Origin: Acidobacteriota bacterium
GTDB taxonomy: Bacteria > Acidobacteriota > Terriglobia > Bryobacterales > Bryobacteraceae
Reading direction: 5' to 3'
Length of the DNA stretch: 54,648 nucleotides
NCBI GenBank assembly: GCA_016213725.1
Contig: JACQZS010000086.1
Coordinates: 1-54,648, forward strand
Shown: positions 32,190 through 34,181 of the stretch, piece after piece
Position numbering within the stretch: position 1 is the stretch's first letter
Layout of the letters: each line of letters begins with the position of its first letter
Made by a program: the position numbers and the translations under genes
The notes under the pieces: generated by a model
Database searches by the model: none
What the model was told of the DNA's origin: nothing
Seen by the model: only the letters and a program-made list of their open reading frames with translations

Positions 32190-32300
32190 GTGACAGTTCA
32201 GCAACAATTATAGCAACTGCGCGCCGAGCTGCGCCGTCACGAGCACCTCTACTACGTCCTCGACCAGCCGGAGATCTCCGACGCGGAATACGACGGACTC
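32190..32300 (+). other. apparent N-terminal coding remnant of ligA with an in-frame amber codon
   Basis: Reading the ligA frame upstream of its first ATG gives GTG ACA GTT CAG CAA CAA TTA, then TAG (32211-32213), then [29 protein letters not shown] and the ATG at 32301. This matches the normal LigA N-terminus (E. coli: M-E-S-I-E-Q-Q-L-T-E-L-R...), with the TAG in the column of Thr9. The segment holds the conserved Tyr, Asp, Tyr and Asp residues of domain Ia that contact NMN. Between the TAG and 32301 no ATG, GTG or TTG exists in frame, only CTG (32217, 32229). Confidence 0.8.
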
Positions 32301-34181
32301 ATGCAGCAACTCCGCCAGCTGGAGCGGGACCACCCCGGCATCCCCATCCCTCCGGATTCGCCCACTCGCCGTGTCGGCGGTGCGCCCCGCGAAGGCTTCG
32401 TCAAAGTCCCGCACAGCGCGCCCATGCTCAGCCTGGACAACGCCCTCAACGAAGCTGAGTTGATGGACTTCGACCGCCGCGTGCGGGAACTCCTCGGCGA
32501 CGAGAGCTACCAGTACACCGCCGAACTCAAGCTCGACGGCCTCTCCATGGCCGTCCACTACGAAGCCGGGAACCTCGCGCTCGCCCTCACCCGCGGCGAC
32601 GGCGCCGTCGGCGAAGATGTCACCGCTAACGCGCTAACACTGCGCACTCTTCCTCTGCGCGTCGCGGACCCGCCCTTCCCGAAGTTCGAAGTCCGCGGCG
32701 AGGTCATCATGACCCATGCGGCTTTCGAGCGTCTGAACAACGACCGCCGCGAGCAGGGCCTCTCTCTGTACGCCAATCCGCGCAACTCCGCCGCAGGTTC
32801 GCTGCGCGTGCTCGATCCTTCCATCACAGCCTCGCGCCAGCTCGAATACCACGCCTACTATCTGCTGGTGGATGGCCGTCCCGCGCTCGACAGCCATTGG
32901 GACTCGCTCGAGCTGTTAACCCGCATGGGTTTCAAGGTCAACCCCAAGCGCGCCCGGATTGCCGGCATCGAGCCGTTGCTCGACTACTGCCGCCAGCGCG
33001 GCGCGGAGCGCGAATCACTCCCCTACGAAATCGACGGCGTGGTGGCCAAGGTCGACTCCATCCCCCAACAGGAGCGCCTCGGCTGGACCGCCAAGGCCCC
33101 CCGCTGGGCCATCGCCTACAAATTCTCCGCCCGCCAGGCCGACACCGTGCTCGAGAACATAGACGTTCAGGTGGGCCGCACCGGCGTCCTCACGCCCGTC
33201 GCGCGGCTCAAGCCCGTCGTGGTCAGCGGCGTCACCGTCACCAACGCCACGCTGCACAACGAGGACTACATCCGCGAACTCGACCTCATGATCGGCGACA
33301 CGGTCGTCATCGAGCGCAGCGGCGATGTGATCCCCAAGGTGTTGAGGGTCGCCCGCCAGGGCGCCGAGCGCCGCCCCTTTTCGATGCCCGCCGAGTGTCC
33401 CGTTTGCGGCGCGCCCGTGCTCCGCGCCGAGGGCGAGGCCGCCAGCCGCTGCGTCAACTCCAGTTGCCCGGCCCGGCTCAAGGAAACCATCCTCCACTTC
33501 TCCGCGCGCCCCGTCATGGACATCGACGGCATGGGCGATGCGCTGGTCGATCAACTCGTCGAACGCGGCCTGGTGAAGAGCGTGGCCGATCTCTACCAGC
33601 TCACCGCGGAACAGCTTTCCGGCCTCGAACGCATGGGCGGGAAGTCCGCCGCCAAGATCGTGGCCAATATCGCCACGACCCGCGAGCGGCCTTTTGCCCG
33701 AGTCATCGCCGGTCTGGGCATCCCCTTCGTCGGCGAGCGCACCGCCCAACTCCTGGCCGAGGGCTTGGGCAGCATGGACGAACTCATGTCCGCCCCGGAA
33801 GGGCGCCTCCAACTCGTCGAGGAGGTCGGCCCCAAGGTTTCCGAGAGCATCCGGCGCTTCTTCGCTGAATCGCACAATCAGGAATTGGTGGCCCGCCTTC
33901 GCGGCGTCGGCCTGCGCTTCGAAAGCGACGGCCCGGCCCGCGCCCAGGCCGGCCCTCTGCTGGGCTTGACTTTTGTTCTCACCGGCGCGCTGCCCACGTT
34001 GACCCGGGAGCAAGCCAAAGAGATGATAGAAGCCGCGGGTGGCAAGGTCACCGGCTCAGTCAGCAAGAAGACGTCGGTGGTCGTTGCCGGCGAAGAGGCG
34101 GGCTCCAAACTCGACAAAGCTCGGGACCTCGGCATCCCAGTGTGGGACGAAAATGAACTTGTGAGCAGGATCAATTCATGA
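32301..34181 (+). CDS. ligA: NAD-dependent DNA ligase, lacking its domain Ia when started at ATG
   Basis: Counting from this ATG gives 626 residues. The adenylation domain has the AMP-attaching Lys77 (AELKLDGL), [17 protein letters not shown] and [13 protein letters not shown]; then come the OB fold (AFKF-type [12 protein letters not shown]), a four-cysteine zinc finger ([18 protein letters not shown]), helix-hairpin-helix repeats ([13 protein letters not shown]) and a BRCT domain ([38 protein letters not shown]). It seals nicks during replication and is normally essential. Counted from the upstream GTG at 32190 the lysine would be residue 114, as in full-length LigA (115 in E. coli), so about 37 residues are missing at this start. 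The downstream DedA gene overlaps the stop (ATGA). Confidence 0.95.
32625..32638. repeat. GTTAGC-type element, altered copy in ligA
   Basis: GCTAACGCGCTAAC: the inverted motif with two bases inserted between its units. Read in ligA as Ala-Asn-Ala-Leu-Thr. Confidence 0.35.

Follow-up and report, generated by a model that had tools for sequence, protein, structure and literature searches.

Stop codons within genes are known from programmed recoding, as in the prfB frameshift, the insertion of selenocysteine at UGA, and the insertion of pyrrolysine at UAG. Lone in-frame stops in constrained bacterial genes are described, in a survey of complete genomes, as widespread, mostly short-lived, and capable of being real; according to the same survey, a substantial fraction of unfiltered stop hits may be artefacts, and only stops common to at least two species were kept (PMC7918605). 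A published account describes NAD+-dependent DNA ligases (LigA) as essential enzymes of bacteria and their subdomain Ia as necessary both for binding NAD+ and for adenylation (PMC5052709). Among the papers listed in a literature search on nonsense and amber stops, none was by title on ligA.

The window analysed here, a stretch of DNA of 54,648 nucleotides, carries a ligA gene with an in-frame TAG near its 5′ end. The window is contig C7 of an assembly (G000) comprising 341 contigs and 6.05 Mb, 88.8% complete and 3.2% contaminated; from contig number and completeness, we infer that it is a metagenome-assembled genome (MAG). The elements of the locus are as follows:

32177-32189, plus strand: TA-rich element immediately upstream of the GTG, a candidate −10 region for a leaderless ligA promoter, as suggested by sequence words
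32190-34181, plus strand: ligA, encoding the NAD+-dependent DNA ligase; 663 codons, the TAG counted among them, followed by TGA (34179-34181)
32190-32192, plus strand: GTG start codon of ligA, the sole ATG, GTG, or TTG in frame from TAA 32184 to the TAG
32211-32213, plus strand: in-frame TAG, codon 8 of ligA, a Glu codon in the three nearest members of the genus
32214-32300, plus strand: rest of the domain Ia coding sequence, from the TAG to the next ATG, in which coding constraint persists
32217-32219, plus strand: CTG, first near-cognate start codon after the TAG, aligned with position 1 of TIGR00575

The ligA frame runs from the GTG through six further codons to the TAG and from there is open to the terminal TGA. 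A longer frame is not possible, because an in-frame TAA (32184-32186) lies two codons upstream of the GTG. The initial annotation, which had placed a TAG inside the N-terminus of LigA, is confirmed: the frame from the GTG is otherwise intact, no ATG, GTG, or TTG in frame lies between the TAG and the ATG at 32301, and the AMP-attaching lysine, part of a KLDG motif, is residue 114 counted from the GTG (residue 77 counted from the ATG at 32301). As assembled and read with the standard code, the sequence does not encode a full-length LigA, with a TAG at codon 8 and the next ATG, GTG, or TTG in frame at 32301.

Profile matches, judged by the Pfam and NCBIfam cut-offs, reveal that the frame encodes all parts of a bacterial ligase. 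In particular, PF01653, PF03120, PF03119, PF12826, and PF00533 score above the Pfam cut-offs, and NF005932 and TIGR00575 above the NCBIfam cut-offs, such that the adenylation, OB, zinc-finger, HhH, and BRCT domains are all present; the N-terminal, NMN-binding domain Ia is encoded in the same frame as the rest of the protein. The gene resembles the bacterial LigA family (TIGR00575, NF005932) in its domain order, in the position of the KLDG lysine, and in an intact HEHLYYVLD...SDAEYD motif, but differs in having a TAG at codon 8, unique among the assemblies compared. Position 1 of the TIGR00575 profile aligns with residue 2 of the frame 32214-34178, i.e. with the CTG at 32217, and the domain Ia profile PF22745 (Nlig-Ia) scores 34.9 bits (cut-off 27) on the translation beginning at 32217 and gives no match to that beginning at the ATG at 32301. 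A start at the CTG would thus keep domain Ia, while a start at the ATG would lose it. Both profile results favour a reading with a genuine, fixed TAG in which translation of LigA initiates or reinitiates at the CTG, three bases behind the TAG, yielding a protein nine residues shorter and with domain Ia retained; weighed against the comparisons below, we consider this reading quite unlikely.

The ligA gene is under strong constraint, including directly behind the TAG. Between the window's genome and its nearest relative (G008, a MAG titled Paludibaculum sp., a genus of the Bryobacteraceae, Acidobacteriota), LigA is 90% identical, with dN of 0.056 and dS of 0.558. With a third genome (G005) as outgroup, 23 amino-acid and 60 silent changes fall on the branch of the window's genome and 25 and 62 on that of G008, with 15 amino-acid and 55 silent differences left unplaced; the TAG is the only stop in this three-way comparison. 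In codons 9-37, just behind the TAG, the branch of the window's genome carries 5 silent changes and 1 amino-acid change. Codons 26-53 hold 6 of the 23 amino-acid changes of that branch versus 2 of the 25 on the G008 branch, and none of the 23 changes removes the HEHLYYVLD...SDAEYD motif.

These data bear on a reading in which a recent, genuine nonsense mutation has inactivated ligA and its function is taken over by another ligase. At 88.8% completeness a missing ligase is conceivable, but the 655 codons behind the TAG are without sign of decay, and bacteria are described as unable to do without an NAD+ ligase (PMC5052709). The second ligase proposed in the initial annotation was not found in the assembly, which holds one NAD+ ligase gene (PF01653) and no match to the ATP ligase profile PF01068. 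We regard a dead ligA as highly improbable.

Comparison with relatives reveals that the TAG is private to the window. In G008 (the genome of locus L032), the 21 bases (seven codons) before the site are identical to those of the window, a Glu codon replaces the TAG, and CAA CTG CGC follows, indicating that the gap-free match to an ordinary LigA start seen in the initial annotation is not due to chance. The site is likewise a Glu codon in G005 and G004. A GTG occupies the position of the ligA start in G008, G005, G004, G007, and L034, and does not in G003. (The record of L034 is titled Arcobacter sp., a name that is probably wrong; its LigA is 71% identical to that of the window and has the same GTG ACA GTT start.) For 110 loci (L002-L111), we walked upstream from the codon aligned with the CTG at 32217; one locus (L064) lacks the region and five repeats were merged, leaving 104 distinct loci. 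An ATG, GTG, or TTG before the TAG position is reached without a stop in 103 of these 104, which shows the presence of upstream start codons, not their use, and the window is the sole exception. None of the 103 other distinct loci is forced to start behind the TAG position, which runs counter both to the CTG start and to the idea that ligA of relatives naturally starts at the equivalent of 32217 or 32301, and none has a stop at the same site, where conserved programmed readthrough would lead one to expect stops. In five of the first nine LigA loci listed (L006-L010), the codon immediately preceding the TAG position is an ATG, so the first residues may be dispensable, a point in favour of the CTG start. 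Elsewhere in the window, several G008 open reading frames other than ligA show stops or a change of frame; these look like over-long start choices or antisense reading frames. Counting broken genes in large blocks syntenic with G008 was abandoned, the stretches compared having too little sequence in common.

The start of ligA looks leaderless, as judged from words in the surrounding sequence. Within 45 bases around the ligA start, TATA[AG] occurs in 30 of 55 distinct loci (letter shuffles: mean 5.0, most 10), and one of the words TATAAT, TTATAG, TTATAA, and ATAATA occurs in 30 of 55 (shuffles: mean 2.2, most 6). By reading, the start region in the window contains TATAA and no word of the four-word set. 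In a published study, leaderless genes are recognised by a TA-like signal some 10 bp upstream of the start codon and are reported in three of three Acidobacteria genomes (PMC3160421). Given a leaderless start, and given that CTG was a poor leaderless start in mycobacterial reporters (PMC4633059), the CTG at 32217 would probably be used only through reinitiation after the TAG. No Shine-Dalgarno-like sequence is seen by eye before the CTG, and reinitiation at CTG codons is weak; reinitiation at this site is possible but unsupported. With T at 32211, positions 32204-32213 read ACAATTATAG, resembling the TA-rich words before ligA in relatives. A new promoter created by the base at 32211 was considered and set aside: by count, its start would fall behind the CTG at 32217, so that it would not rescue the ligA frame.

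To place the ligA TAG among other such stops, we scanned 1,225,693 bases of the assembly (20%, window included) for stops with a strong same-frame coding signal on both sides. The scan, which recovered planted stops in 653 of 1500 trials, yielded 25 candidates (21 within the first 945,214 bases), of which, by eye from the translations, 19 look like two neighbouring genes and 6 like a single gene. Relatives were checked, among the loci fetched, for four of the six; the lone stops of these four lie at C132:13461, C26:1593, C23:21885, and C8:17099 of the assembly. A GSU2086-family gene has a TGA where 10 of 10 close relatives have TGC and one distant relative has CAG (a sense codon in 11 of 11); this TGA could encode selenocysteine. 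The gene for GTP cyclohydrolase II, ribA (contig C132; L231:13461, minus strand), which has one match in the assembly, has a TGA with an ATG directly after it, where eight of eight relatives have a Gly codon. In-frame TAGs other than that of ligA were found in two genes: a DUF4838 gene (of 8 relatives, 7 have Gln and 1 has Glu) and a 3-keto-disaccharide hydrolase gene (5 relatives have Lys and 1 has Thr, these 6 being 47-66% identical and maybe paralogues, three more distant loci having been left out). The remaining two single-gene candidates have TGA at presumed Cys positions, in a peroxiredoxin and a rhodanese, and are perhaps selenocysteine codons. If three to four of the cases in the 1.23 Mb are true, correction by the recovery of planted stops would put the genome-wide number at some 34 to 45. 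The ligA TAG is not alone: this draft has several lone stops private to it. An oxidative-damage signature, in which all stops would arise by G:C to T:A changes, was rejected, since other kinds of change separate the DUF4838 and hydrolase stops from the codons of relatives. The same scan of 355,097 bases of G008 yielded 12 candidates, two of which by eye interrupt a single gene: a TGA in a rhodanese, and a TAA at a site that is TAC in the window. As a control, 400,000 bases of a two-contig genome (G007) yielded five candidates, none inside one gene by eye, where about one would be expected at the rate of the window's genome, a sample too small to separate draft error from real variation.

Several observations touch on selenocysteine. 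A tRNA-Sec gene is present in the window's genome (contig C185, 28382-28472; 67.6 bits, gathering cut-off 47); tRNA-Sec also scores above cut-off in G001, G002, G004, and G005 of the same genus and does not in G003, with G006-G008 outside the search. The genus probably makes selenoproteins. On contig C54 of the window's genome (L275:5501-6445, minus strand), a gene that by eye encodes a DedA-like membrane protein fused to a rhodanese has a TGA at 5626, by its motif presumably at the rhodanese cysteine position. A 7-bp hairpin with a GGUCU loop, as in the E. coli SECIS, lies 14 bases behind this TGA, and the segment folds no better than shuffles (z = 0.15); the fusion is a possible selenoprotein. 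In G008 (L115:16991; contig C186, 73991), a small rhodanese-like protein, a lipoprotein by eye, has a TGA at what we assume to be the active-site cysteine, followed by a 7-bp hairpin (z = −1.98; 9 of 200 shuffles reach as good a fold), and is likewise a possible selenoprotein. On contig C10 of the window's genome (L217:16675-17130, minus strand), an AhpC/TSA-type peroxiredoxin has a TGA at 16962, to our reading at the PG-Cys-T position, a candidate selenocysteine or nonsense codon.

UAG is an ordinary, frequent stop in the window's genome: TAG ends 241 of 708 mechanically chosen open reading frames of at least 200 amino acids in 1.23 Mb, and no tRNA reading UAG was found. Specifically, none of the 41 tRNAs found in the 88.8% complete assembly has a CUA anticodon, so that the suppressor tRNA proposed in the initial annotation did not materialise in this list, which is itself incomplete (no Trp, no Ile tRNA). 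The missing tRNAs leave room for a tRNA-CUA, or pyrrolysine, acting from an unassembled part of the genome to reassign or suppress UAG. We judge such a reassignment extremely improbable: UAG is in use as a terminator and ends a third of long reading frames, the best PylS match is 22.4 bits against a cut-off of 178.15, and the UAG sites fall at Glu, Gln, and Lys positions of relatives. No RNA structure that could serve as a recoding signal was detected behind the ligA TAG (z = 1.07), and structure-dependent recoding was dropped on this result. The ligA gene thus shares with programmed recoding a stop codon within a gene but differs in that the stop is not conserved, no unusual structure lies behind it, PylS was not found, and UAG is the wrong codon for selenocysteine.

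A real but leaky TAG, read by near-cognate tRNAs frequently enough to supply a ligase of which little is needed, would be in keeping with the in-frame TAGs of the DUF4838 and hydrolase genes, at Gln and Lys positions of most relatives, and with the report that lone in-frame stops in constrained genes are common in bacteria (PMC7918605). The frequent use of UAG as a terminator, the lack of a suppressor among the 41 tRNAs, and the absence of a stop from the 103 other LigA loci speak against leaky reading; the ribA TGA, at a Gly position, indicates that the pattern is not limited to UAG. We consider leaky reading of UAG very unlikely.

We consider it probable that the ligA TAG is a base error or a non-fixed variant and that no readthrough or recoding device is at work. 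Under this explanation, the organism would have an ordinary ligA with its start at GTG 32190 and Glu at codon 8, probably on a leaderless mRNA, and the TAG at 32211 would be a single wrong base in the draft consensus or else an unfixed strain variant. The ribA gene, like ligA, is expected to be essential. We favour error or non-fixed variation because lone stops hit these two single-copy, expected-essential genes, which real, fixed stops should avoid and which errors in the consensus or unfixed variants may well strike; counting against it, the lone-stop changes of the genome share no single mutation type. An artefact or a short-lived variant would agree with the published survey, which also leaves room for readthrough: like the stops it covers, the ligA TAG is a single stop in an otherwise constrained gene, but it is private to one draft genome, whereas the stops kept there are common to at least two species (PMC7918605). 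Among the five explanations left open by the initial annotation, base error or recent, non-fixed nonsense mutation is the best supported; readthrough and CTG initiation gained no positive evidence, and neither a second ligase nor a suppressor tRNA was found in the 88.8% complete assembly. For a single base change, the initial annotation gave CAG (Gln) to TAG as its example; the nearest relatives have Glu here.

It is, by comparison, unlikely that the amber codon is real and fixed, with an essential, single-copy ligase throttled via CTG initiation or reinitiation or via leaky UAG in a lineage tolerating several stops. If the amber codon were true, an essential replication enzyme would rely on non-standard initiation or leaky termination. 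The ligA case mainly illustrates that recoding can be mimicked by a single stop in a draft genome, and that comparison with relatives, the usage of stop codons, and a tally of like stops elsewhere in the assembly narrow such a case without reads.
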